Shown: positions 7,702 to 45,558 of the stretch, one piece after another
Layout: every line of letters starts with the position of its first letter
Position numbering within the stretch: position 1 is the first letter of the stretch
Assembly: GCA_030041985.1 (NCBI GenBank)
Contig: JASIAM010000277.1
Span: forward strand, 1 to 51,599
Reading direction: 5' to 3'
DNA length: 51,599 bases
Origin: Bryobacteraceae bacterium
Lineage (GTDB): Bacteria > Acidobacteriota > Terriglobia > Bryobacterales > Bryobacteraceae
The notes under the pieces: generated by a model
The model's database searches: none
The model's input: the letters and a program-made list of their open reading frames with translations, nothing else
Told to the model about the DNA's origin: nothing
Position numbers and translations under genes: made by a program

Positions 7702-8964
7702 TTGGTATCCCAAGGCTACTCTGGAACACGGGTAGATCCGGCGCAGAACCGGCCCGAATCCTTCCTGTTGGCAAGCGCACGCTGGCTGACCTTCGGGTCG
7801 GCCGTAACGATTCTGTTTTCGATAGCGATTTCGCAGACGCTGCTGGCCCTGGCTTTGGCGGCTCTGCTGGTGTCGGGCGAAAAGCTGCGCTTGCCGCCGA
7901 TCAAACTGCCTTTGGGATTGTTCCTGCTGGGGACCGTGATCTCGCTGGCTTTTTCCGGGGAGCCGGCCGCGGGCCTGCCGCAGATACGGAAGTTCTACGT
8001 CTTTCTGGAGCTGCTGGTAGTCTATTCCTCGTTGCGCGATGTGGTGTGGATCCGCCGGCTGGTGCTTTGCTGGGCGGGGATTGGCGGGCTGATCGCCCTG
8101 CGGGGTTTTGTGCAGTTCGCGCAGAGATGGAAAGAAGCGCAGGAGCTGCACCGGAATTTCTACGACTATTACGCTCCGGCCGAACGAATGACGGGCTTTA
8201 TGAGCCACTGGATGACGTTCTCGGGCCAGGAGATGTTCGTGCTGCTGATGCTGGGCGCGTTTCTCTTCTTTGCTCCGGGCGCGCTGAAGCGGGGCGGGCT
8301 GTGGATCGCGTGCGGCGGGCTGATGTCGCTGGCGCTGCTGCTGGGCTTTACGCGCAGCATCTGGCTGGCAACCGCGGTAGCGGGAGCGTACCTTCTGTGG
8401 TTCGTGCGCCGTTGGTTGGTAGCGGCGGTTCCGGTGGCGGCGGCACTGGTATTTCTGCTCTCGCCGGCGGCTGTAAAGGAGCGATTCACTTCGATTTTTC
8501 ACCCAAAAGAAGGCGTGGACTCCAACGAGTTTCGGGTTGTGACCAGACGCGTCGGCATGCGCATGATCGAACGGCATCCACTACTGGGTTTGGGCCCGGA
8601 AGGTGTGAAGCTGCATTTCACCGAGTACGTGCCGGCCGATATTCAGCGGCTGCCACCCGGCTGGTATGGCCACCTGCACAATATTTACCTGCATTATGCG
8701 GCAGAGCGGGGCGTGCCTACCATGCTGATGCTGATGTGGCTGCTACTGAAAATTCTGTATGACTTTTATAGAGGCTTGCGGGGATTGCCCGCAGAACGCA
8801 GCAACCGCAAGTTTCTGCTGCACGGAGGGATTGCCGTGGTGCTGGCCACCATGGTCGCGGGGTTCTACGAATTGAATCTCGGCGATACGGAAGTGCTGAC
8901 GGTGTTCCTTACGGTGGTGGCTTGTGGGTACCTGGCGCTGGAGAAAGAGGTAGTGGGGGCTTAA
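7702..8964 (+). CDS. O-antigen ligase/polymerase-like membrane protein
   Basis: The frame is open from 7603, but its upstream ATGs lie inside the divergent thioredoxin-like gene. TTG 7702 or TTG 7768 would avoid that overlap, so the start is uncertain. The product has about ten or more hydrophobic segments and one long soluble loop. Within the C-terminal half, PGWYGHLHNIYLHYAAERG matches the conserved Wzy_C/WaaL motif, in which the His/Asn region is important for glycan transfer to an undecaprenyl- or lipid-A-linked acceptor. RHPLLGLGPEG precedes it, as in that family. It is likely a surface polysaccharide ligase or polymerase of the inner membrane. No other glycan gene is adjacent except rfaE2, 20 kb away. 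Its TAA overlaps the TAA of the convergent MetE-like gene (TTAA at 8961-8964). Confidence 0.78.
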   Translation: MVSQGYSGTRVDPAQNRPESFLLASARWLTFGSAVTILFSIAISQTLLALALAALLVSGEKLRLPPIKLPLGLFLLGTVISLAFSGEPAAGLPQIRKFYVFLELLVVYSSLRDVVWIRRLVLCWAGIGGLIALRGFVQFAQRWKEAQELHRNFYDYYAPAERMTGFMSHWMTFSGQEMFVLLMLGAFLFFAPGALKRGGLWIACGGLMSLALLLGFTRSIWLATAVAGAYLLWFVRRWLVAAVPVAAALVFLLSPAAVKERFTSIFHPKEGVDSNEFRVVTRRVGMRMIERHPLLGLGPEGVKLHFTEYVPADIQRLPPGWYGHLHNIYLHYAAERGVPTMLMLMWLLLKILYDFYRGLRGLPAERSNRKFLLHGGIAVVLATMVAGFYELNLGDTEVLTVFLTVVACGYLALEKEVVGA

Positions 8965-10115
8965 TTCCACAATTGTTTACTCGCCAGGCGCGCGCCTTCA
9001 GCGAGAGCGTGGAATTTGGCCCAGATCACGGTGGGGTGGATTTCGGTGTGGTAGCTGGCTTGGGAAGAGAAGCCGCAATCGGCGCCGGCGATTACGTTTT
9101 CCCGGCCTACCAGACGAGCGAAGCGGAGAATGCGCTCCGCAATCAACTCGGGGTGCTCCACGATATTGGAAGCATGTGTGATCACACCCGGAATGAGAAC
9201 CTTGCCTGCGGGCAGCTTGAGCGATTCCCAGACGTGGTATTCGTGCTCATGCCGCGCATTGGCGTTTTCGAACGAATAAGCTCCGGCGTTGATTTTGATC
9301 ATTACTTCGGCGACATCGCGCAACGGCGCATCGTGGACGCGCGGCCCTTCATTGATGCCATAGCAGGTGTGGAAACGGATCTTCTCCGGTGGGATGCCCC
9401 TAATGCTGTGATTGAGAGTTTCCACCCACATCTCCGCGGTTTTTTTTCTCTCTGCCGCGCTCATCGAGGGACGGCCGAAGATTTCGGTTAGAAACGGATC
9501 GTCGAGTTGCAGAAGAAAGCCTGCCTCGACGATGGCCAGATATTCGTGGCGCATCGCTTCGCCAACGGCTTGGAAGTATTGTTCCTCGGTTGGGTAGTAT
9601 TGGTTGAATCCCACGCCGCCCGGCGCAACGGAAGGGAGGAACACGTCGGCAACCTCCAGGCCTTGGAGGGCGGTTTTTAAATTAGCGATGTCGCGCTGGA
9701 CAAACTCGAGCGTTCGATAGCTGACGGGGCCTGTACAAACCAGCGGCGCAATCGGAGCTACTGCGCCACCGAGCATGGCTTGCTGCATGTAGATGGCGTA
9801 ATACTCGGGGAAAGCTTCGGTCTCGGCGGCGAAGCGGGGGAAGTGAAAGTCGGGCCGCGGTTCAAAGCCATCGAGGCGCTCGCGCACATACGCGAAAAAG
9901 CCGGGCTTGGCCATCTCTCCATCGGTGGGGACATCGATGCCACAGGCGGCCTGCCGGCGCACAATGTCACCTACGGCGCTGCGGATTCGGTCCGTGTAAG
10001 CGCCGTGATCATAGGAGAGGCCGCTCAGTTTGGCCTTCATTATATCGAGCAGATCGTGGGGACGCGGAAGGCTGCCGCAGTGGGTGGTGAGGATGCGATC
10101 GGTGCTTCTTGTCAT
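8961..10115 (-). CDS. MetE-like zinc methyltransferase (core domain only), paralog A
   Basis: 384 residues, about half of full-length MetE, so it has only the catalytic barrel. It opens with ILTTHCGSLPRP, the usual start of the short MetE-like/UROD-like group. The zinc ligands are all present: His and Cys in RFHTCYG, Glu in SFENANARHEHE, and Cys in GADCGF. Known members of this superfamily use Zn to activate a thiolate (homocysteine or coenzyme M) for methyl or alkyl transfer. The true acceptor here is unknown. The ATG directly follows the TAA of the preceding exported-protein gene with no spacer, so the two are co-translated. A second paralog lies at 44362 in a similar gene set, hence a dedicated pathway role rather than methionine supply is plausible. 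Confidence 0.85.
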   Translation of the reverse strand: MTRSTDRILTTHCGSLPRPHDLLDIMKAKLSGLSYDHGAYTDRIRSAVGDIVRRQAACGIDVPTDGEMAKPGFFAYVRERLDGFEPRPDFHFPRFAAETEAFPEYYAIYMQQAMLGGAVAPIAPLVCTGPVSYRTLEFVQRDIANLKTALQGLEVADVFLPSVAPGGVGFNQYYPTEEQYFQAVGEAMRHEYLAIVEAGFLLQLDDPFLTEIFGRPSMSAAERKKTAEMWVETLNHSIRGIPPEKIRFHTCYGINEGPRVHDAPLRDVAEVMIKINAGAYSFENANARHEHEYHVWESLKLPAGKVLIPGVITHASNIVEHPELIAERILRFARLVGRENVIAGADCGFSSQASYHTEIHPTVIWAKFHALAEGARLASKQLWN

Positions 10116-14300: not shown

Positions 14301-14754
14301 GATTTCCTTGCACTACTTTGCTCCGGGATGCCGCCCCACAACAACCCAGCTCGAAGGTTACCATCGAAAATCCGGGAAGGCCCGCAGCCGCCTTTTGCAA
14401 ATGGTCATAGGCGGCGCGCAGCGGGATGAGCACAGGGTCGATGGCGATGCCGCTCCCGGCGGCTCGGAGCGCGCAATGCAAAAACTCGGCGGCTTCTAAT
14501 AAGTGCTGATGGCGCGAGCGGGCGCCCGGTGGAACTCGCACGTGCCGCACGGCATCCATCGCCTCGAGGTAGAGTTGCGCAGCGGAAGTGAGCATGGGAT
14601 GGTGCGGCCCCGCGCATTGCGACCCCGAAGCAGCCAGCACCAGCAGCCCGGCCAATTGCGCGGCCACTTGCCGGAGATCTTCAAACGCGCGGCGCGTTTC
14701 GAGGACATATTCCGTGGTGGGCTGGTCGATGCCCTTCCCGGCATTCTGCGTCAT
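14293..14754 (-). CDS. Uncharacterised helical protein between ALDH and lactonase-like genes
   Basis: The frame opens at 14802, but ATG 14754 overlaps the ALDH stop by one base (TAATG) and is the better start, giving 153 residues. The chain is mostly amphipathic helices with LRQVAAQLAGLLVL, YLEAMDAVRHVRV and a His-containing HQHLLEAAEFLHCAL segment, ending in a Cys-Cys pair (LGCCGAAS). I do not recognise the family. Tight overlaps on both sides (one base upstream, eight downstream) show it belongs to the same operon and probably to the same pathway or complex. Confidence 0.65.
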   Translation of the reverse strand: MTQNAGKGIDQPTTEYVLETRRAFEDLRQVAAQLAGLLVLAASGSQCAGPHHPMLTSAAQLYLEAMDAVRHVRVPPGARSRHQHLLEAAEFLHCALRAAGSGIAIDPVLIPLRAAYDHLQKAAAGLPGFSMVTFELGCCGAASRSKVVQGNHE

Positions 14755-16238
14755 TAGCGCATCACAAATGGGTTCGGCGTGTTGCCCGAAATATCGATCC
14801 ATACGCTTTTCGTCTGTAAATATTCGCTGATCGCGTCCATACCGCTCTCGCGCCCTATGCCCGAGCGCTTGTAGCCGCCGAAGGGCGACATATAACTGAC
14901 GGCGCGATATGTATTCACCCAGACAGTCCCGGCCTCAAGCCTCTCGGACATCACCAACGCGCGCCGCATGCTGGTGGTCCATACGCCCGCAGCCAACCCG
15001 TAGACGGTGCCATTGGCAATGCGAATCGCTTCCTCCTCATCCGCAAACGGAATCACGGAAAGCACCGGGCCGAATACTTCCTCGTTGGCGATGCGCATGT
15101 CCGGCCGCACGCCGGTGAAGATGGTCGGTTCGATGAACCATCCGGAACCGCACTCCGGCCGCGTCGCCGGGCTGCCACCCAACTGGCAGACAGCGCCTTC
15201 TTCTTTCGCGATTCGCAGGTAGTCCAGCACTTTTTCGTACTGCGGCCGGGTGGTGATTGGCCCCACCTGCGTAGTCAATTCGAGCGGATTACCCATGCGG
15301 GCCGTGCGCGCCAACGCCAGCAGGCGATCGACGAATTTCTCGTGAATCGGCCGATGGATCAGCGCGCGCGAGCCGGCAATGCAAGTCTGGCCGGTCGCGG
15401 CAAAGATACCTGAGATTACGCCATTCACGGCCGCATCCAGATCGGCATCGTCGAACACGATATTCGCGGACTTGCCTCCCAGCTCGAGCGTGACGTGCTT
15501 CAAGCCGCGCGCCGCCTGTTGGTAAACGTACTCACCCGTGCGGTCACCGCCCGTGAAGGCAATCTTCGCTACATCCGGATGTGTGACCAGCGGCTCTCCT
15601 ACTTCATTGCCGAAGCCCGTCACGATATTCACGACTCCCGGAGGGAAGCCCGCCTTTTCGAAAAGCTCGCCAAATTCCAGCGCGGAAACCGAGGAAAATT
15701 CCGAGGGTTTCCACACCACGGTGTTCCCCGCGGCCAAGGCTGGCGCAAGTTTCCACGCGGCCAGCAGCAGCGGCGAATTCCACGGCGTGATGGCGGCAAT
15801 GACCCCCAGCGGCTCTTCGCGCGTGAAGTTGAACACCCCCGGCTTGTCAATGGGGATCACGCGGCCTTCGATTTTGTCTGCCAATCCGCCGAAATAGTAA
15901 AACCACTGCGGAATGTAATTGAGCTGCCCGCGCATTTCGGCCAGCAGCTTGCCGTTGTCGCGGGTTTCGATCTCGGCCAGGCGCGCGGCGTCGGCTGCAA
16001 TGAGGTCGGCGAGGCGCCGCAACAGAGCGCCGCGCGCGCTGGCGGTCATACTGCGCCACGAGCCGCAATAGAAAGCCGACCGTGCGGCGGCCACTGCACG
16101 ATCGACATCCGCCTTGCTCCCGCGCGGGACCATCGCCCAGGGCGCAGCCGTGAACGGGTTGACGGATTCGAACCATTCGCAGGAAGCCGGCGCGGCCGGA
16201 GCGCCGCCAATCAGCATCTCGTATTTCTTCATAGTCAT
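14754..16238 (-). CDS. NAD(P)-dependent aldehyde dehydrogenase
   Basis: 494 residues, the normal size for the ALDH superfamily. Landmarks in order are TPWNSPLLLAAWKLAPALAAGN (Asn169 region), WKPSEFSS, FTGGDRTGEY (cofactor loop), LELGGKSANIVF (general-base Glu), GQTCIAGSR (catalytic Cys), EEVFGPVL and FGGYKRSGIGRE near the C-terminus. It oxidises an aldehyde to the acid with NAD(P)+. The overall pattern resembles betaine/hydroxymuconic-semialdehyde-type members, but substrate assignment from motifs alone is unsafe. It is the first gene of the seven-gene cluster running to 8961. Confidence 0.93.
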   Translation of the reverse strand: MTMKKYEMLIGGAPAAPASCEWFESVNPFTAAPWAMVPRGSKADVDRAVAAARSAFYCGSWRSMTASARGALLRRLADLIAADAARLAEIETRDNGKLLAEMRGQLNYIPQWFYYFGGLADKIEGRVIPIDKPGVFNFTREEPLGVIAAITPWNSPLLLAAWKLAPALAAGNTVVWKPSEFSSVSALEFGELFEKAGFPPGVVNIVTGFGNEVGEPLVTHPDVAKIAFTGGDRTGEYVYQQAARGLKHVTLELGGKSANIVFDDADLDAAVNGVISGIFAATGQTCIAGSRALIHRPIHEKFVDRLLALARTARMGNPLELTTQVGPITTRPQYEKVLDYLRIAKEEGAVCQLGGSPATRPECGSGWFIEPTIFTGVRPDMRIANEEVFGPVLSVIPFADEEEAIRIANGTVYGLAAGVWTTSMRRALVMSERLEAGTVWVNTYRAVSYMSPFGGYKRSGIGRESGMDAISEYLQTKSVWIDISGNTPNPFVMR

Positions 16239-16423
16239 TTCGCGTAATCCAATCCGTCAATATCGCATAAAAAGTTGTCAGTTATCATGACTGCGGCGGG
16301 CAGCCGCTTCAATGCTCTCGGCACCCACCGCGCCGCGGTCGTAGGCTGTGTGCAACAAATCTTCTCTTCCATAAACAGACACCTTTCTCTTGTTTGCTTT
16401 CTGTTCGGTCCGTTCGATTTCTG

Positions 16424-16453
16424 TTGACAAGTATCCCGAATCGGGCATATACT
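16424..16453 (+). promoter_or_regulatory. Sigma-70-type promoter for the riboswitch leader
   Basis: A perfect -35 box TTGACA (16424-16429) is followed after 18 bases by TATACT (16448-16453), one mismatch from the -10 consensus. Transcription would start near 16460, about ten bases before the first stem of the riboswitch. The spacing makes this the strongest promoter-like sequence I saw in the window. Confidence 0.7.
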
Positions 16454-16470
16454 GCCCTCGAAGCGATCAA

Positions 16471-16568
16471 GTGCGAGGGAGAGACTTACCGCGCTTGCGG
16501 TGAGCACCGAAGGGGCAACCGGCGATCTCGTCAACGCCGTGAAGCTCTCAGGTAAATGAACTTCGCAC
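16471..16568 (+). ncRNA. Glycine riboswitch aptamer
   Basis: The order of conserved elements matches the glycine aptamer. P1 is GTGCGA (16471-16476) pairing with TCGCAC (16563-16568). Then GGGAGAGAC, a P3a-type hairpin (CCGCGCTTGCGG), GCACCGAAGGGGCAA, a CCGGCG/CGCCG stem, and GTGAAGCTCTCAGGTAAA follow, with the GAGAG/CTCTC pairing of P2 intact. It resembles the first aptamer of the B. subtilis gcvT leader element for element. It lies in the sense orientation directly downstream of a consensus promoter. The next gene, 152 bases on, is an ABC exporter ATPase rather than a glycine-metabolism gene. Confidence 0.85.
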
Positions 16569-16574
16569 CTGTAA

Positions 16575-16652
16575 TCCTCTGGTGTAGTCCACACCGTTAG
16601 TGGTTCGCTGGCCTAGCCGCCTTGGCAAATCCCTAGATTCTTCGACAGAGGA
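16575..16652 (+). promoter_or_regulatory. Eroded second aptamer (ghost aptamer) of the glycine riboswitch
   Basis: TCCTCTG (16575-16581) pairs perfectly with CAGAGGA (16646-16652), and the closing bases read CTCTGG...GACAGAG, as in P1 of the second gcvT aptamer. The interior has a GGTGT/ACACC hairpin and other short stems but lacks the CCGAAGG and CTCTCAGG core. This fits singlet glycine riboswitches in which a partner domain keeps only its outer helix for tertiary support. A further hairpin at 16667-16689 (CTTAACGGAG/CTTCGCTAAG with one mismatch and one wobble) may be part of the expression platform. No U tract follows it, so a simple terminator is not evident. Confidence 0.5.
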
Positions 16653-16720
16653 CCTCCCAAGAGACGCTTAACGGAGTTTCTTCGCTAAGTGAAAAACTGT
16701 TGAATGCCAGGAGCCACTGA

Positions 16721-17494
16721 ATGGGCCAAAACGGTATCAGTCCGCTTATCTCTGTTCGTAATCTCGCCAAAGCCTATCGTGTGGGAGAGATTGCCGTGGA
16801 AGCTCTGCGCGGCATCACACTCGATATCGAGCCGGGCGAGTTTGTAACGGTCGTCGGTCCCTCCGGTTCCGGTAAATCGACACTGATGCACATTTTGGGT
16901 TGCCTCGATCAACCGACCAGCGGAGATTACTTTCTCGATGGAAAGAATGTTTCCCGGCTGAACGATGACGAATTATCGGGCATTCGAAACCAGAAAATCG
17001 GTTTCGTGTTTCAGGGGTTCAACCTGCTCGCACGCACTTCGGCGCTCGAAAACGTGGAACTGCCGCTGTTGTATGTGCGCACTGGCGTCTCTGCATCGGA
17101 GCGGCGGCGGCGCGCCATGGAGTCGCTTGCCACTGTACGGTTGGCGGACCGGGCGGATCACAGCCCGAACCAACTCTCCGGCGGCCAGCAACAGCGTGTG
17201 GCCATCGCGCGCGCACTTCTCAACCACCCGTCCATCCTGCTTGCGGATGAGCCGACAGGAAATCTGGACAGCCGGACGAGTATCGAAGTAATGGAGATCT
17301 TTCAATCGCTCAAAGAGACACAGGGAATCACGATCGTGCTCATCACACACGAACAGGAGGTCGCCGAATACGGCTCCCGCACGATCACCATCAAGGACGG
17401 CAATATCGTATCCGATTACGCCAATACTGCGCGGCGCGTGGCGCGGCTGGCTTTGGAAGAAACGGCCGTGACGGGTGGCGCGGCGGCATCGTAA
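16721..17494 (+). CDS. ABC exporter ATPase, MacB/LolD type
   Basis: 257 residues with a complete nucleotide-binding domain: Walker [10 protein letters not shown] (46-54), Q-loop FVFQGFNLL, signature LSGGQQQR (152-159), Walker B SILLADEP (171-178) and switch His in [23 protein letters not shown] is characteristic of the MacB/LolD/FtsE-type group that drives type VII (mechanotransmission) exporters. AGGAG lies about eight bases before the ATG. The gene is the first of the operon behind the glycine-type leader, and two FtsX/MacB-type permeases follow. The usual MacA-like membrane-fusion partner is missing here. Confidence 0.93.
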
Positions 17495-17515: not shown

Positions 17516-19009
17516 ATGACTTTGCAATTATGCTTTCGGGTAGCCGCAAAAGCTCTCGCCAGAAATAAGCTCCGGTCGGTCTTGACGACCACCGGCATGA
17601 CCATCGGGGTAGCCACGGTACTGACTATGATCGCGCTGGGGAGTGGCGCGGAATCAGCGATTAAGGATCAGGTGAAGGCGGCCGGCATGAACCTGATTTT
17701 TGTCACGGCGGGCAACTACCAAGTGAAAACCGAGGACGCCGGAGAAGCTATTGAAGAGAACGGCGCCCTGATCCTGCCAGACGGCGAGAAACCAGCCTTT
17801 GAGCCGGCTACGTGGCATCCGGGCGACGGTTTGCAATTCATTCTGACTCACGCCGAAGATGACCCGATGGTGAAACATGATCATCCGACCGCCGCCCAGA
17901 GGCTGGGAGACAGCGAGGCCGGGCTGGGTTCCGCGGCAACTCTGCTCTCTAGCGATGCCGAAGCGATTCGCAAGCTGAAGGGAGTGCAGTATGTATCCGA
18001 GGGAGTGCACGAAAATGCACATGTAGCGCTCGATTCGAAGCGCTGGTTCACTCGTCTGCATGGCGATGACGTCTCTCTGCTGGATATCCGGCGCGCCTGG
18101 AAATTCTCGTATGGCCGTTTTTATACGCGCCGGGAGGAGAAAAAAGCCGAGCAGGTGATCGTTCTCGGCTCGGTGGTCAGTGAGAAGCTGTTCGGCACAA
18201 AGAACCCCGTAGGCGAGACAGTCAAACTCTGGAAACAGCCGTTCCAAGTAGTCGGCGTAGTTACGAGCGGAAGCTGGCTCACACCGCCGGCTCCTGGTGA
18301 CGATCAGTTTGATGCGATCTACGTTCCATTTACGACGGTTCACCGATTGTTGAACCTTACGAAACTCAACGATATTACGGTCACTGCGGCGTCGGCCGGC
18401 GATGTGACTCGTTTGTCAAAGGCGATCACGGGGCTGTTGCGGACACGTCATAAAATCACGGCCAACAAGGCCGATGATTTTACTGTGAACACGCAGGCAC
18501 GCCAGGCGCTGGCGCGAGGCGGGATGCGGCCGGAAGTGGCGCACGCGGTGGTCGGTAACGTAGCGGGGCTGGAGAGGGTAACTCTCGAACAACTGGGTAA
18601 GACGCTGGACCGGGCCAGCCGCACGATGACCGCGTTGCTGGGTAGCATTGCCGCGATCTCACTACTAGTGGGCGGCATCGGGATCATGAACATCATGCTA
18701 CTCTCGGTGACCGAGCGCACCAAGGAGATCGGCCTGCGGAGAGCGGTGGGCGCTCGCGCCCGAGACGTGCTGCTGCAATTTCTAGCGGAATCCGCAAGCT
18801 TGAGCCTGGCTGGGGGCATTCTTGGCATTCTAATCGGCGCCGTTGCCTCGGTAATGATCTCGCACTGGGCAGGGTGGTCAGCGGCAATTTCACCATTGGC
18901 GGTGATTGTTTCTTTCGGCGTTGCCGCGGGCGTCGGAGTGTTCTTTGGCTACTACCCGGCGCGTCAGGCCTCGGAAGTGCCACCCATAGAGTCTCTCAGG
19001 TACGAGTGA
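17516..19009 (+). CDS. MacB-type ABC permease with His-rich periplasmic insert
   Basis: 497 residues. One N-terminal helix follows the elbow motif ARNKLRSVLTTTGMTIGVA. A periplasmic MacB_PCD-like domain (about residues 45-370) comes next, then three C-terminal FtsX helices with GGIGIMNIMLLSVTERTKEIGLR, RRAVGARARDVLLQFLAES and FGYYPARQAS. The periplasmic domain has an extra acidic/His stretch (FILTHAEDDPMVKHDHP) that its sister permease lacks, a possible metal-binding patch. Its TGA overlaps the ATG of the second permease by one base, so the two are probably made in equal amounts as a heterodimer with the ATPase. Confidence 0.92.
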   Translation: MTLQLCFRVAAKALARNKLRSVLTTTGMTIGVATVLTMIALGSGAESAIKDQVKAAGMNLIFVTAGNYQVKTEDAGEAIEENGALILPDGEKPAFEPATWHPGDGLQFILTHAEDDPMVKHDHPTAAQRLGDSEAGLGSAATLLSSDAEAIRKLKGVQYVSEGVHENAHVALDSKRWFTRLHGDDVSLLDIRRAWKFSYGRFYTRREEKKAEQVIVLGSVVSEKLFGTKNPVGETVKLWKQPFQVVGVVTSGSWLTPPAPGDDQFDAIYVPFTTVHRLLNLTKLNDITVTAASAGDVTRLSKAITGLLRTRHKITANKADDFTVNTQARQALARGGMRPEVAHAVVGNVAGLERVTLEQLGKTLDRASRTMTALLGSIAAISLLVGGIGIMNIMLLSVTERTKEIGLRRAVGARARDVLLQFLAESASLSLAGGILGILIGAVASVMISHWAGWSAAISPLAVIVSFGVAAGVGVFFGYYPARQASEVPPIESLRYE

Positions 19010-20376
19010 TGCTAGTTACCAGCTTTCGTATAGCTCTTAGGGCACTGGGCCGCAATAAACTGCGCACCGCACTGACAATGCTCGGTATGACGATCGGGGT
19101 AGCTGCGGTGCTTGCCATGGTCGCTCTGGGGACTGGAGCGCAACAGACCGTGTCCAGCGACCTAGAGACCGCTGGAACAACGCTTATCAATGTCAATGCC
19201 GGGAATTATACGCGCGGGGGTTCCGAGTCCAACATAGCGAGCGGCCTCGGAGCGGCGAATACACTGACCCCGGACGACGCAGATCAGATTGGCAAGATTG
19301 CCGGCGTGAAGTACTATTCAGCCGTAGTCAGGTTACGCGGTTGGGCTAGCGCCGGCAGCGAGCGGACTTATACGCAGATCTTTGGCGCCAGCGCGACATA
19401 CCCGAAGATTCAAGGTTGGCCGCTACTCAAGGGAAAGTATTTCAAGGATTCCGACGTTGCGGGCGCTACGCGGGTAGCGATCCTGGGGCGGGTAGCTCGC
19501 GACCGACTGTTCGGCGAAGACACCAATCCAGTTGGAAAAGAAATTGTCATTCATAACCAGACCTTCCGCGTGATCGGAGTCTCCGGAACCAATGACGATA
19601 ACCAGATTGAAGCAGTTTTTGTTCCGTACACAACGCTGCAGAAACTGCTGGGCATCGGTTACCTACATTCGGTTGCGGTATTTGCCGCGCACGCGGGAGA
19701 AGCGACTCCGATTTCCACCGAAATCCGCAAACTATTGCGGAAGCGGCACCATTTAGACACCGGCGAGGCGTTCGAGCGCGCTCTCAGAACCGGGTTGCCG
19801 GGCAATCAAATGCCTGGCGGGTCTGGCCGTTGGGCAGCGCCGGATGATTTCACGGTCAAAACGCAAGCCGCGGAAGCGTTGACGAAAGGACTATACACCT
19901 CCGTAGCTGCATTTATTTTGGCCAACATGCCCAAAGTGGATCAGATCAACATGCAGGAAATGGCGGGAACGTTGAATCGCGCGGGGGCCACCATGACGGC
20001 TCTACTCGCCGCGATTGCCACGATCTCACTGGTGGTGGGCGGAATCGGGATTATGAACATCATGCTGGTCTCGGTTACGGAGAGAACGCGCGAAATCGGC
20101 ATCCGGCGCGCGATCGGAGCGCGGGCGCGCGATGTGCTGATTCAATTCCTGGCCGAAGCAGCGACCTTGGGCATGTGCGGGGGCGTGGCGGGTATTGCGC
20201 TAGGGTTCCTGGCGGCGTTTGCGATCACGGAACTGCTTGACTGGCCGGCTGCGGTTTCGCCCGGCTCCGTGGCGCTGGCTTTTGGTATTGCGGGTGCGAT
20301 TGGAATCTTTTTCGGCTTTTACCCGGCGAGCAGGGCGGCACGATTGAATCCCATCAATGCGCTGCGTTACGAGTGA
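19009..20376 (+). CDS. Second MacB-type ABC permease
   Basis: 455 residues from ATG 19009 (TGATG overlap with the first permease); the frame runs open from 18874, but that part lies inside the upstream gene. Same plan as its partner: GRNKLRTALTMLGMTIGVAAV elbow and helix, periplasmic domain with PVGKEIVIHNQTFRVIGV, then GGIGIMNIMLVSVTERTREIG, IRRAIGARARDVLIQFLAEA and FGFYPASRAARLNPINALRYE at the end. The two permeases probably arose by duplication. Together with the ATPase they form a mechanotransmission-type exporter that acts on periplasmic substrates such as lipoproteins, peptides or siderophore-like molecules. Confidence 0.92.
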   Translation: MLVTSFRIALRALGRNKLRTALTMLGMTIGVAAVLAMVALGTGAQQTVSSDLETAGTTLINVNAGNYTRGGSESNIASGLGAANTLTPDDADQIGKIAGVKYYSAVVRLRGWASAGSERTYTQIFGASATYPKIQGWPLLKGKYFKDSDVAGATRVAILGRVARDRLFGEDTNPVGKEIVIHNQTFRVIGVSGTNDDNQIEAVFVPYTTLQKLLGIGYLHSVAVFAAHAGEATPISTEIRKLLRKRHHLDTGEAFERALRTGLPGNQMPGGSGRWAAPDDFTVKTQAAEALTKGLYTSVAAFILANMPKVDQINMQEMAGTLNRAGATMTALLAAIATISLVVGGIGIMNIMLVSVTERTREIGIRRAIGARARDVLIQFLAEAATLGMCGGVAGIALGFLAAFAITELLDWPAAVSPGSVALAFGIAGAIGIFFGFYPASRAARLNPINALRYE

Positions 20377-20383
20377 GTGCGTT

Positions 20384-21790
20384 ATGCGCTTTGCGACCTT
20401 AGTAACAATAGGAGCGATTGCCGCAGGACCGGCACTCAGTCACGGCGAACATACGCCGCTCTATGGGGGTGTCGTTCTCTCTTTGGCTGATCACCATGTG
20501 GAAGCGGTCTTCAAGCCGGATGGTAAGTATGGCTTGTATTTTACGGATGCCACTGGAACAGCGATTCCGGCTACCGACGCGAGCAAAGTCAGCCTGACCA
20601 TTCTCCGCCCGCACCGGAAAGCCGAGATGATCCCCATGCGGCTTGGAGACAGCGGAGATGGTTGGGATGGCACAGGAACACCGGTTGCAGACCGCAAAAC
20701 CACAGTAAAGATCAGTTATTTCCTCGGGGGCAAACCGTATACAAGTGAAATTCTGTTCTTCTCATCATCTACCAATCCTCTATTTCATATCGATCTGCAC
20801 ACTTATCCCGAGAAGGTAGAGGCGAACCAGCCGGTAAGGCTGTCGCTGGCGATTCAGAATTCGGACGGAAAGAGCGTAACGTCGCTCGATATCGTGCATG
20901 AAAAGCCGATTCACCTGCTCGTGGTTTCACGCGATCTGGCGGAGTTCTATCACATCCACCCGCAACTTACAAAAGCCGGCGCCTGGGACGTGACACACAC
21001 ATTTCCTTGGGGCGGATCGTATCGATTGTATGCGGATTACACTCCTCACGATTCCGGAGGCGTTGTAGAGTGGATGGACTTGGAAGTGGAAGGCCCGCGG
21101 CGGCCTTCGATCAAGCTTACACCCGATACGCAGCTCACAAAGGCTGTGGGATCTCTGCGAGTGACATTCTCCTGCGACACTCCGCTCGTAGCCGGGAACG
21201 ACCTTCAGTTGAAATTTCGTGTGCTGGACGCGAAGACGGGCGCGCCCGTGCGGGATCTGCAACGTTATCTGGGAGCCTGGGGTCACATCGCGATTGTAAG
21301 CGACGATCTTCAGGAGTTCATTCACGCGCATCCTTTCGACCCCGAGGAATCGCCGGAGCATCCTTCTTTGCACAACCCTCCGGTGATCGAGGTGCCAACC
21401 GGATTCCGGCGTCCGGGTCTGTATAAACTCTGGATCCAGTTTCAAAGGAACTCAGTAGTCATTCCTGTGCCCTTCGTGCTTCGCGTTGCCGGCAAAACCG
21501 AAGCTCCAGAAGCTCCTAATGCTCCCCGGGATGCCATTCTGGTTACGGTAAGCAGCGCGGGTTATGACCCGGCCCATATCGAGGCCAAGCTCGGCCAACC
21601 ATTGAAGCTTGCCTTTTACCGGCCTGATGCCCAGAACTGCGGCAGCGTAGTGAACTTCCCCGATCTGCATGTGAGCCGGGAGCTGCCTCCCGGAAAAACA
21701 ACCATTGTGACCATAGTGCCACGGCAGACCGGCCCGCTTTCCTTCGCCTGCAAGATGGGAATGCTAAAAGGCCAATTGATTGTGAGATAG
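20384..21790 (+). CDS. Exported metal-binding protein with C-terminal cupredoxin domain
   Basis: 468 residues from ATG 20384 (signal peptide ending GPALS; mature start HGEHTPLYGG). The N-terminal and middle parts are beta-rich with recurring His motifs (YHIHPQL, HAHPFDPEE) and AWGHIAIVSDD/LQEF, as seen in periplasmic proteins found with copper or heavy-metal genes. The last ~90 residues resemble a cupredoxin-like domain: GYDPAHIEAKLGQPLKLAFY, a Cys in AQNCGSVVNF, and SFACKMGML, where Cys and Met would be copper ligands. It begins only seven bases after the second permease stop, so it is part of the operon. It may be the periplasmic partner that replaces a MacA-like adaptor or delivers a metal-bound substrate. 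Confidence 0.75.
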   Translation: MRFATLVTIGAIAAGPALSHGEHTPLYGGVVLSLADHHVEAVFKPDGKYGLYFTDATGTAIPATDASKVSLTILRPHRKAEMIPMRLGDSGDGWDGTGTPVADRKTTVKISYFLGGKPYTSEILFFSSSTNPLFHIDLHTYPEKVEANQPVRLSLAIQNSDGKSVTSLDIVHEKPIHLLVVSRDLAEFYHIHPQLTKAGAWDVTHTFPWGGSYRLYADYTPHDSGGVVEWMDLEVEGPRRPSIKLTPDTQLTKAVGSLRVTFSCDTPLVAGNDLQLKFRVLDAKTGAPVRDLQRYLGAWGHIAIVSDDLQEFIHAHPFDPEESPEHPSLHNPPVIEVPTGFRRPGLYKLWIQFQRNSVVIPVPFVLRVAGKTEAPEAPNAPRDAILVTVSSAGYDPAHIEAKLGQPLKLAFYRPDAQNCGSVVNFPDLHVSRELPPGKTTIVTIVPRQTGPLSFACKMGMLKGQLIVR

Positions 21791-21823: not shown

Positions 21824-23446
21824 ATGCGTCTGATATTGGTTTCACTAGCGGCCTGCGCTGTTATACTCGTGTCGGCCGGATGTTCCCGAAAAGCGTCGGC
21901 GACAGGCACTGAGACCTCCGCCAAGAAACTCACTCACCAGTATCGTCCCAACGGCGACACAAAGGCACAGATCGATATGACGAAGATCAGAAGTGAGGAG
22001 CTCAAGAAGGTTTATTCCTATATTGACGATCATTTCGACGAGCACGTGGAGCGTTTGCAAAAGTGGATCCGCCAGCCGAGTATTTCCAATAGCGGCGAAG
22101 GTATTCCGGAAACTGCCGAGATGGTCAAAGGCTTCTTTGATGAACTGGGCTGCCAGCAGTCTCGCGTGTATGACACCGGCGTGACGGAATGGGGCCTTCC
22201 CGGCAACCCGGTGGTTTATGCAAAATGTGACGAGGGCGCGCCGAAAACCATAGTGATCTACTGGCAATATGACACCATGCCAGTGACTCAGCCGGAGAAC
22301 TGGCGGGTGCCTCCGTTTGATGGCGCGATTGTGCAGCAGGGTGACTTCAAAAAAGTTCTGGTCGCACGCGGAGCCACTAACTCCAAGGGACCGGAGATGT
22401 CGGAATACAACGCGCTGATGTCGATCCGCGCGGTCAGAGGTAAGTTGCCGGTGAATGTGATCTTTGTGGCGGAGGGCGATGAAGAGCGCATGGATATCGG
22501 ACTGCGCAACTTTGTTCGCGATCATCCGGATCTCTTCAAGGGCGCGGATATCATGATGGGCGGCGGAAGCTCGGAGGGATGTGTCTATATTCAACTGACT
22601 ACCAGCGGCAAGAGCTGGGGCCGAGGCCCGGTGGAATCGGATATTCATGGTTCCAACAAGCGCTCCGTAGACAGCCCGGCGTGGCGTCACATCAAAATGC
22701 TGGCCTCGCTGGTTTCCGACGACGGCAACACGCCCCTGATACAGGGCTGGAACGAGAACAAAGTTCCGCCCACGCCGGAGCAGCTCGAGCGCCTCAGAAA
22801 ACGCACTGCTAACGCGGATCTCAAGACCATGGAGACGAACCTGGGTGTGGCGCGGTACATCGCCGACGATCCTTTCGACGTGATGCGCATGCAGAATTTT
22901 GAAACGTCCTTCAACCTAGACGGGATTTGGGGCGGGAATATGTATGCCGACGCCGCGGGCGCGATTCTGCCGAACAAGATTACCTCCAAGCACAATATCC
23001 GCTACGTGCCCAATATGAACGGCATGGACCTGGTGAAAAAGATCCGCGCGCAACTGGACCGCAATGGCTATAAGGATGTGGAGTTGAAAGTCATCGGCGA
23101 TGTGCCCTGGTCAACAGTAGATCCTAAAAATGACATGAACAGCGCAGCGGCGCGGATGTATGACGCCTTCGGAGTGACTTCACGGCGTATTCAGGCGGAC
23201 AACCATGTGCCTGACTCCTCCGAGATGGGTGGCTACTGGCCGTCGTATCTCTTCAATAACGGCAAAGTGGGCCAGAGGGTATCGCCAGTTGGTATGCCGA
23301 TCGGCGGCGGTAACGTTGGGATGGGTGGACGCGCGCACGCGGCTAACGAGTTCTACGTGATTGAAGGCGCCGGCAATACGTATGGAATGGCGGGAGCGGA
23401 GAAATCCATCGCGACCGATATCTATAATTACGCGGGCCTGAACTGA
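21824..23446 (+). CDS. M20-family peptidase-like lipoprotein with altered metal ligands
   Basis: 540 residues. The signal peptide ends in lipobox LVSAGC (Cys20), so the protein is lipid-anchored. The body is an M20/ArgE-DapE-type hydrolase: YWQYDTMPV (147-154), GATNSKGP (183-190), AEGDEERMD (216-224), and a late GGRAHAANEF motif carrying the final His. In catalytic M20 enzymes the first motif is HxD and the second is GAxDxKG. Here the first His is Gln148 and the bridging Asp is Asn186, while the catalytic pair Glu220-Glu221 is kept. A strong AAAGGAGAG precedes the ATG. It closes the riboswitch-led operon. It may cleave peptides with altered metal use, or bind them without cleavage. Confidence 0.82.
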   Translation: MRLILVSLAACAVILVSAGCSRKASATGTETSAKKLTHQYRPNGDTKAQIDMTKIRSEELKKVYSYIDDHFDEHVERLQKWIRQPSISNSGEGIPETAEMVKGFFDELGCQQSRVYDTGVTEWGLPGNPVVYAKCDEGAPKTIVIYWQYDTMPVTQPENWRVPPFDGAIVQQGDFKKVLVARGATNSKGPEMSEYNALMSIRAVRGKLPVNVIFVAEGDEERMDIGLRNFVRDHPDLFKGADIMMGGGSSEGCVYIQLTTSGKSWGRGPVESDIHGSNKRSVDSPAWRHIKMLASLVSDDGNTPLIQGWNENKVPPTPEQLERLRKRTANADLKTMETNLGVARYIADDPFDVMRMQNFETSFNLDGIWGGNMYADAAGAILPNKITSKHNIRYVPNMNGMDLVKKIRAQLDRNGYKDVELKVIGDVPWSTVDPKNDMNSAAARMYDAFGVTSRRIQADNHVPDSSEMGGYWPSYLFNNGKVGQRVSPVGMPIGGGNVGMGGRAHAANEFYVIEGAGNTYGMAGAEKSIATDIYNYAGLN

Positions 23447-44361: not shown

Positions 44362-45558
44362 TCAAACTGCCGGAGACACGGAAGACGCGGAAACCGCGCC
44401 ACGGCCCCACAAGCGCCCCGAAGCGATATGGGCGCCTTCGCCGAGCGATTTGAGTTTCAGCCAGACGGCCGGCTCGATCACCCACTCCCGGTTGGTGAAG
44501 GTTCCGAAACCGCAATCGGCGCCGCCGATGACGCGCTCGCGATCGCCCACCGCGGCCACCGCCTGCTCGATGCGCCGCGCCACCACTTCAGGATGCTCCA
44601 CGATGTTGGTGGTGGTATCGATCACACCCGGGATCAACACCTTATCGTGCGGCAAGGGCAAGCGCCGGAAGACCTCGATTTCGTGCTGGTGCCGCGGGTT
44701 CGCCATCTCGATGCTCATCGCGCCCACCTTGGCCTGATAGAGTACCGGCAGGATCAGTTGCAGGGGCACGTCGAAGACATGCGGGCCATCCCAATTGCCC
44801 CAGCAGCAGTGCAGCCGCACGCGCTCCGGCGGAATCCCGGAAATCGCCTGGTTAATGGCCTCCACATGCCGCTCGCAGGCCTTTACGAACTCACCATCAG
44901 AGAGGTCGCGGTAAAACATCGCGCGGTCCATGGCGAGATCGGGGGCGTCGATTTGCAGCAGCAATCCCGCACGGTGGATCGCCAGGTACTCGTGGTGCAT
45001 TTCGCGGGCCAGCGCGGTGAGATAAGCATCGTGCGAATCGTACCAAGCGTTGAGCATGGTGGTTGAGATGATGCCCGGAGAAGGCGCGGTCATAAAGCAG
45101 CCGGTGAACGTGCCCACGGACCTGGCTGCTGTTTTGAGGCGCTCGATTTCGCGCTCTAACGGCGCGGTATCGAGATAGCGGACTTCCGCCTGGGCCTCCG
45201 GGGCATTCTGCATGCGGCTGCGCTTCGGGAATCGCAGCTTGAGGACTTCCACCAATTCCGGAAAGCTTTCGTAATCCCGCCCGCGGCGCCGCTTGGATTG
45301 CCCCGCAAACCCTGACATGCGCTGTGGCACGTAAGTCTGAAAACCGACCCGCTGCTGCTCCCCGTCATTGGCGATATCGATGCCGGCTTCCGCCTGTTTT
45401 TCGATAACGTGTTCGACGGCGCGATCCATTTCGCGAGCGAGTTGCCCGGGATCAATCGCGGCCCCCTCCTCACGCGCAATGAGCAGCTCCGACAATGTTT
45501 CGTTGCGCGGCAAGCTGCCAACGTGCGTGGTGAGAATACGATCACGACTGAGGATCAT
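44362..45558 (-). CDS. MetE-like zinc methyltransferase (core domain only), paralog B
   Basis: 398 residues. ILTTHVGSLPRN opens it as in paralog A. Zinc ligands: His and Cys in RLHCCWGNWDG, Glu in SIEMANPRHQHE, Cys in GADCGFGTF. VLIPGVIDTTTNIVEHPEVVARRI mirrors paralog A closely (VLIPGVITHASNIVEHPE). An insert with FPKRSRMQN and TAARSVGTFTG differs from paralog A, and the substrate pocket residues are probably not the same. The C-terminus carries a short Ser/Ala tail. It is the second gene of a four-gene minus-strand set. Enzyme class is secure; methyl or alkyl donor and acceptor are unknown. Confidence 0.85.
   Translation of the reverse strand: MILSRDRILTTHVGSLPRNETLSELLIAREEGAAIDPGQLAREMDRAVEHVIEKQAEAGIDIANDGEQQRVGFQTYVPQRMSGFAGQSKRRRGRDYESFPELVEVLKLRFPKRSRMQNAPEAQAEVRYLDTAPLEREIERLKTAARSVGTFTGCFMTAPSPGIISTTMLNAWYDSHDAYLTALAREMHHEYLAIHRAGLLLQIDAPDLAMDRAMFYRDLSDGEFVKACERHVEAINQAISGIPPERVRLHCCWGNWDGPHVFDVPLQLILPVLYQAKVGAMSIEMANPRHQHEIEVFRRLPLPHDKVLIPGVIDTTTNIVEHPEVVARRIEQAVAAVGDRERVIGGADCGFGTFTNREWVIEPAVWLKLKSLGEGAHIASGRLWGRGAVSASSVSPAV

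Follow-up and report, generated by a model that had tools for sequence, protein, structure and literature searches.

A single intact glycine riboswitch aptamer, followed on its 3′ side by a degenerate (ghost) aptamer, forms the leader of a five-gene envelope operon in a Bryobacteraceae bacterium (contig JASIAM010000277.1). The whole stretch of DNA that was analysed, 51,599 nt in length, is termed the window. The reading that we favour, and regard as reasonably probable, is that this type-1 singlet riboswitch turns on translation of the operon as cytoplasmic glycine rises. The riboswitch is of a known kind, while the set of genes that it precedes looks new.

The aptamer occupies nucleotides 16466–16573 of the (+) strand. 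It matches the Rfam glycine riboswitch model RF00504 over its full length (model positions 1–94 of 94) with 57.4 bits and E = 2.5e-9 in the window, against a gathering score of 32 bits. No other Rfam match in the whole window reaches its gathering score, and this is the only intact glycine aptamer. By this match the leader is a glycine riboswitch, with glycine as its predicted ligand, and the assignment of the aptamer is well supported. The fold of the whole leader is more stable than those of shuffled sequences (z = −2.59; 2 of 200 shuffles as good). The aptamer had been proposed in the first-pass annotation, and its sense orientation is correct, with the match on the (+) strand ahead of the ATPase open reading frame at 16721. 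No intrinsic-terminator-like site that would end the transcript before 16721 was found in 16200–16900. The accompanying statement that all conserved elements are present is slightly overstated. The match is full-length, but J3/1 departs from the common segment at two positions; the segment following CUCUCAGG(U) is AAAUGAAC, where 30 of the 42 riboswitches compared have AAAAGGAC.

Upstream of the aptamer is a sigma-70-type promoter (TTGACA-18-TATACT, 16424–16453, +) with 11 of 12 consensus bases, as had been reported. Taken alone it is weak evidence, because sites passing the looser limit of the promoter scan are expected 0.5 times in shuffled sequences; TTGACA-17/18-TANACT is also found upstream in six of seven homologous leaders. 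Transcription would begin just downstream of 16453.

The ghost aptamer (about 16575–16652, +) was absent from the earlier description. It comprises 78 bases from 16575, starting with UCCUCUG and ending with CAGAGGA. Two stems are retained, P1 (16575–16581 with 16646–16652) and P2 (16589–16592 with 16600–16603). No second RF00504 match was found in the window leader up to E = 10, ruling out a second scoring aptamer there. The other singlet leaders have a similar domain downstream of their aptamer, and seven leaders were aligned, a small set drawn from three genomes. The fraction of paired cells in this alignment is 85.7% for ghost P1, 81.8% for ghost P2 and 90.7% for the whole named structure; slid versions of that structure reach 38–48%. 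Double-sided changes occur at six of the 33 pairs, a number reached by 7 of 500 shuffles. The ghost contributes one such change among its 12 pairs, and none is in ghost P1. The covariation of the named structure (0.165) is nearly equalled by that of a version slid by +2 (0.147), and the number of pair types is not above that of shuffles (270 of 500). RNAalifold applied to the ghost alone recovers P1 as well as P2; its covariation term (+2.36) is unfavourable. In alignment A3 the P2 of the window is, by eye, one base out of register. The case for the ghost is mainly its position, the kept stems and the likeness between leaders, the covariation being thin.

The arrangement corresponds to that termed a type-1 singleton by Crum et al. 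(PMC6944388), in which the ghost is on the 3′ side of the glycine aptamer. Like the known examples the window leader has one intact aptamer with a full-model Rfam match, and 3′ of it a degenerate aptamer keeping P1; the assignment to type 1 is by arrangement and pairing and not by the published type-1/type-2 covariance models. In most of the seven leaders studied here the ghost additionally retains, by eye, a P2 hairpin with a similar loop, and the majority of these loops are approximately A-N-Y-G-U. Ghost aptamers lend support to the intact aptamer, according to two further papers (PMC5666159, PMC9481103).

The ghost of the window leader competes in computed folds with a helix that hides the ribosome-binding site. 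The Shine–Dalgarno sequence AGGAG (16709–16713) and its flanks (16706–16718, +) are the core of the 3′ arm of this sequestering helix, which has about 18 bp. The core of the anti-Shine–Dalgarno arm in the minimum free energy folds (16599–16612, +) overlaps ghost P2 and the sequence after it, so that the sequestering strand is inside the ghost. The best duplex has a free energy of −27.4 kcal/mol, compared with −15.6 ± 2.4 kcal/mol in shuffles, none of 500 of which is as stable. The unpaired fraction of the site is 0.00 (0 of 150 shuffles as low), and rises to 0.53 when aptamer P1 and ghost P1 are forced to form. The sequestering fold is 12–13 kcal/mol better than the ghost-forced folds, and switching would therefore need to take place while the RNA is being transcribed. 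Glycine bound by the intact aptamer would cause it to dock on the ghost and hold the ghost stems together. With 16599–16612 kept in the ghost fold, 16709–16713 would be free and the operon translated. When glycine is lacking the ghost would open and 16599–16612 would pair with the ribosome-binding site, blocking translation. From these folds we infer, with moderate confidence, a translational ON switch for the window leader.

The other leaders back an ON switch weakly or not at all. Forcing the ghost raises the unpaired fraction of the site from 0.29 to 0.55 before the ATPase gene of genome G465, from 0.33 to 0.39 before that of G599, and from 0.48 to 0.55 before the M20 gene of G465. For the two ATPase leaders among these, many shuffles equal the stability of the best duplex (222 and 149 of 500), and what is low is the accessibility of the site (6 and 8 of 150 shuffles). 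Accessibility is not low in the M20 leader and two leaders of outer-membrane protein (OMP) genes, where 90, 99 and 114 of 150 shuffles are as low. These comparisons with shuffles rule out one site-sequestering mechanism shared by all the leaders.

The sign of the switch might be the reverse, with the leader repressing a scavenging regulon when glycine is plentiful. OFF action is ascribed to riboswitches that precede glycine transporters, and a regulon with a TonB-type OMP and a met-zincin would suit scavenging; moreover, sequestration of the site is not out of the ordinary in the OMP and M20 leaders tested. Yet formation of the ghost fold exposes the site in the window, and the ghost is on the side associated with breakdown. 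According to Crum et al., 93% of type-1 singletons, with the ghost 3′, regulate glycine cleavage, and 90% of type-2 singletons regulate transport (PMC6944388). An OFF switch is on this evidence possible, though less likely than an ON switch. In another paper, glycine is stated to turn gcvT on in Bacillus subtilis (PMC5666159); this and the link of type 1 to glycine cleavage fit the ON reading. What sets the window genome apart from the known type-1 singletons is the nature of the genes, an ABC transporter operon and a separate OMP operon.

The five genes of the operon are close-set, and their Pfam matches agree with the MacB-type exporter, cupredoxin-like and M20-family genes that had been named before. 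The first encodes a MacB/LolD-like ABC ATPase (16721–17494, +; ABC_tran 1.1e-33), which shares 74–75% identity with the ATPases that this kind of leader precedes in G465 and G599. Two permeases follow, each with MacB_PCD and FtsX domains (17516–19009 and 19003–20376, +; the start of the second was chosen inside a longer open reading frame, 18874–20376). The fourth gene encodes a protein with a C-terminal cupredoxin domain (20384–21790, +; Cupredoxin_1 5.7e-17; start chosen inside the longer frame 20357–21790), and the fifth an M20-fold protein (21824–23446, +). None of the five has a Pfam match of MacA-like or TolC-like type. An aldehyde dehydrogenase gene (14754–16238, −) is divergent from the operon.

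The transporter resembles MacB/LolCDE-type systems in having a LolD/MacB-like ATPase and two MacB_PCD+FtsX permeases. It differs from them in that the ATPase and permeases are split, and in falling below the NCBIfam cut-offs among the matches listed. The ATPase is below the cut-off of the best 25 of 190 NCBIfam models, and the permeases are below that of every match (6 of 6 and 9 of 9). For NF007826, the MacB macrolide exporter, the ATPase scores 262 bits and the permeases 191 and 236 bits against a cut-off of 966 bits, but this model describes a fused protein and is out of reach for split subunits, which may work in a similar way all the same.

The M20-like protein has the fold of its family (Peptidase_M20 4.8e-10; AlphaFold model with pLDDT 79.5). 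The best Foldseek matches are the dipeptidases DUG1 (4g1p, E = 3.8e-29) and carnosinase CN2 (2zof_A, E = 1.7e-28). In an alignment with solved M20 peptidases the residues that we take to be the usual metal ligands are in part replaced. The histidine of the HxD motif is glutamine, the bridging aspartate is asparagine, and the third metal aspartate of carnosinase aligns with glycine, this last site being in a gapped, glycine-rich stretch and counted for the window protein only. The Glu-Glu pair and the last histidine are retained. Thirty-seven related sequences were taken from the loci (33 at 52–83% identity and 4 distant at 30–32%), and 34 of these have letters at the first two sites. In contrast to the dipeptidases, all 34 lack the HxD histidine and the bridging aspartate, having glutamine or methionine at the first site and asparagine at the second. 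Asn186, Glu220, Glu221 and His505 are invariant in an alignment of 21 rows. The loss of usual metal-ligand residues led us to reject an ordinary M20 peptidase as the likely identity, and the alignments indicate a conserved protein that is probably no normal peptidase; it may have a binding role. Of the earlier designation as an M20-family lipoprotein, the fold stands and the N-terminus is lipoprotein-like by eye, but ordinary peptidase activity is doubtful. Metal-less M20 genes are found in tandem, in two or three copies, in Granulicella and other acidobacterial records (L063 8268–13403, L067–L070 and L076), and they lie before MacB genes where MacB genes were called.

Across the order, 40 of 257 genomes have RF00504 matches. 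Grouping of matches within 60 nt gave 44 riboswitches (41 examined together, two in the window genome and one in G008). Thirty-seven are ahead of glycine-cleavage genes. Behind 32 of the 41, including two with one scoring aptamer, gcvP comes first, as it does in G008, where it was read from the open reading frame; the gcvP behind the L111 riboswitch rests on 69 aligned residues at 43% identity. Two riboswitches are followed by sdaA and then gcvP, and two by gcvT (by eye). The seven that do not serve glycine cleavage precede the ATPase gene in the window genome (G000), G465 and G599, the OMP gene in G000 and G599, the M20 gene in G465 and an OMP gene in G618. The first six are singlets and come from three genera of one family. 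A search for the same leader before macB-like genes of other Acidobacteriota had been suggested earlier, and the same kind of leader was found at orthologous operons in two further genera. In the phylum sample RF00504 matches occur in 6 of 396 genomes, and in two among 61 relatives; the genome scans (60 to 400 genomes) scored the best first-look candidates, so weak riboswitches may be lost from these counts.

One P3 base pair separates the singlets from the tandem riboswitches of the same family, with which they share the aptamer family. It is A-U in the six intact singlets (from the alignment in four; read from the sequences for the window and contig C62). In the tandems, which have two scoring aptamers and glycine-cleavage genes downstream in 34 of 35 cases, it is G-C in 33 of 35 and G-U in two. 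G501 and G532 have one scoring aptamer before gcvP and a G-C pair at this position; a second aptamer is still present by eye, and they were left out of the six singlets. A tandem gcvP riboswitch is possibly the ancestor of the singlets.

The predominance of glycine cleavage in the order, and a decayed sister copy of the leader before the OMP gene of G465 (19.8 bits), would both suit a relic of a lost glycine-cleavage operon that now regulates nothing. This we consider quite improbable, given six intact copies before the same gene set in three genera, the promoter kept in all but one of the seven leaders, and a window helix that sequesters the site more stably than any shuffle. A variant class sensing another small molecule handled by the operon would suit the existence of glycine-rejecting variants (PMC9481103), the unusual gene context and the two J3/1 changes of the window. 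It is nevertheless very improbable, since all six intact singlets, which score 50.5–65.5 bits, keep the CCGAAGG and CUCUCAGG segments intact.

Regulation by glycine through an intact riboswitch is the preferred reading, and it would extend to a second operon. The window genome has two RF00504 matches, the window leader and C62:5217–5322 (65.5 bits). The latter leads into genes for a CarboxypepD_reg/OMP_b-brl_4 outer-membrane protein, a DUF5117/met-zincin protein and a beta-lactamase–NamZ fusion. With this second copy of the leader on another contig, the two operons would form one glycine regulon. The C62 operon (L005:5217–13536) ends in the fusion of a beta-lactamase-like domain to the muramidase NamZ, which may connect it with turnover of the cell wall. 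A single gene separates the two switches of G599, with the OMP gene on one side (−) and the genes from ATPase to M20 on the other (+). At L058 (3858–5680) one gene is likewise between two glycine riboswitches, each facing away. A protein with a HEAYPGHH motif beside the OMP has no Pfam match at E = 0.001 (DUF885 at E = 0.18); we take the motif to be typical of DUF885 proteins. The G618 riboswitch before an OMP gene is a tandem (G618:C2:205990–206172, L146), and is perhaps a separate recruitment to such a gene; its CarboxypepD_reg OMP is followed by cytochrome c and a PQQ dehydrogenase domain protein. Glycine cleavage in the window genome itself is encoded by split gcvPA/gcvPB with gcvT and gcvH on C70 (names by eye), a contig on which no RF00504 match was found.

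A scan of named genomes for the M20-like protein yielded 22 loci, of which 21 have 58–83% identity and one is distant at 24%; L077, among the 21, is a record titled Rhodanobacteraceae. At least 15 of the 21 have the ATPase and at least 18 have the ATPase or a permease, these counts being lower bounds since overlapping open reading frames were dropped and many contigs are short. RF00504 is matched in three of the 21, L058 (twice), L059 and L069, with L079 lying outside the scan. In at least four (L063, L067, L068 and L069) gcvP is downstream of the MacB genes on the opposite strand. In L069, and in L042, taken as the same contig as L063, this gcvP is behind sdaA and a glycine riboswitch. With the riboswitch at the operon and gcvP as a neighbour, there are therefore two kinds of link between the operon and glycine metabolism, found in two lineages. 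Within the order, M20 matches at E = 1e-100 occur in six of 257 genomes. Three of these six, G600, G603 and G604, have more distant M20 orthologues at 63–67% identity and no riboswitch above the cut-off, which counts against a fixed link of operon and riboswitch. The operon is not a property of the genus, as four genus-mates have neither an M20 match at E = 1e-100 nor RF00504 above the cut-off. The absence of the module from genus-mates would suit its horizontal spread, but DNA of the gcvP region is also just 70% identical between G000 and G599. A plasmid copy of the leader was ruled out, there being no PLSDB match.

In PMC3766115 the targets of glycine riboswitches are glycine metabolism, glycine transporters and serine metabolism, and phosphoserine aminotransferase and malate synthase are also mentioned from metagenomes; the gene classes of Crum et al. 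include one termed ‘Other’ (PMC6944388). The genes downstream of the window leader (ABC_tran, MacB_PCD/FtsX, Cupredoxin_1 and M20) belong to none of the three classes glycine metabolism, glycine transport and serine metabolism. No such glycine-riboswitch regulon is described in the literature searched, which takes in few subscription papers and not the individual members of ‘Other’; the Acidobacteria riboswitch papers found, in their accessible parts, concern NAD and lysine riboswitches. A regulon outside glycine cleavage and glycine transport is credible from the genomic comparison, because the same kind of leader precedes orthologues of the operon in two further genera. That recurrence lends credence to the earlier proposal of a new regulon class; its restriction to an exporter operon was too narrow, as a TonB-type outer-membrane protein, with a met-zincin after it, also belongs to the regulon. 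The accompanying idea that export relieves glycine stress is speculative.

A fuller picture can be drawn tentatively, although we think it unlikely to hold in every part. The glycine riboswitch would be the inducer sensor of a two-operon envelope system (OMP/met-zincin and MacB/cupredoxin/M20). In it the M20 protein, a peptidase that has lost its activity, would bind peptides or amino acids as a lipoprotein partner of the MacB machine, and glycine from peptides would switch on its own supply or clearance route. Should glycine indeed switch the operon, the roles of this riboswitch class would no longer be limited to the breakdown and uptake of glycine. A MacB-type operon with no assigned substrate would gain a candidate signal, and with it a direct handle on what the machine moves; genes for outer-membrane proteins and exporters would have come, in several genera, under the control of a metabolite riboswitch. 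Elsewhere in the window, at 8961–10115 and 44362–45558 (−), are the genes of two proteins starting with a TTH(C/V)GSLPR motif, which by eye resemble, presumably, the cobalamin-independent methionine synthase superfamily.
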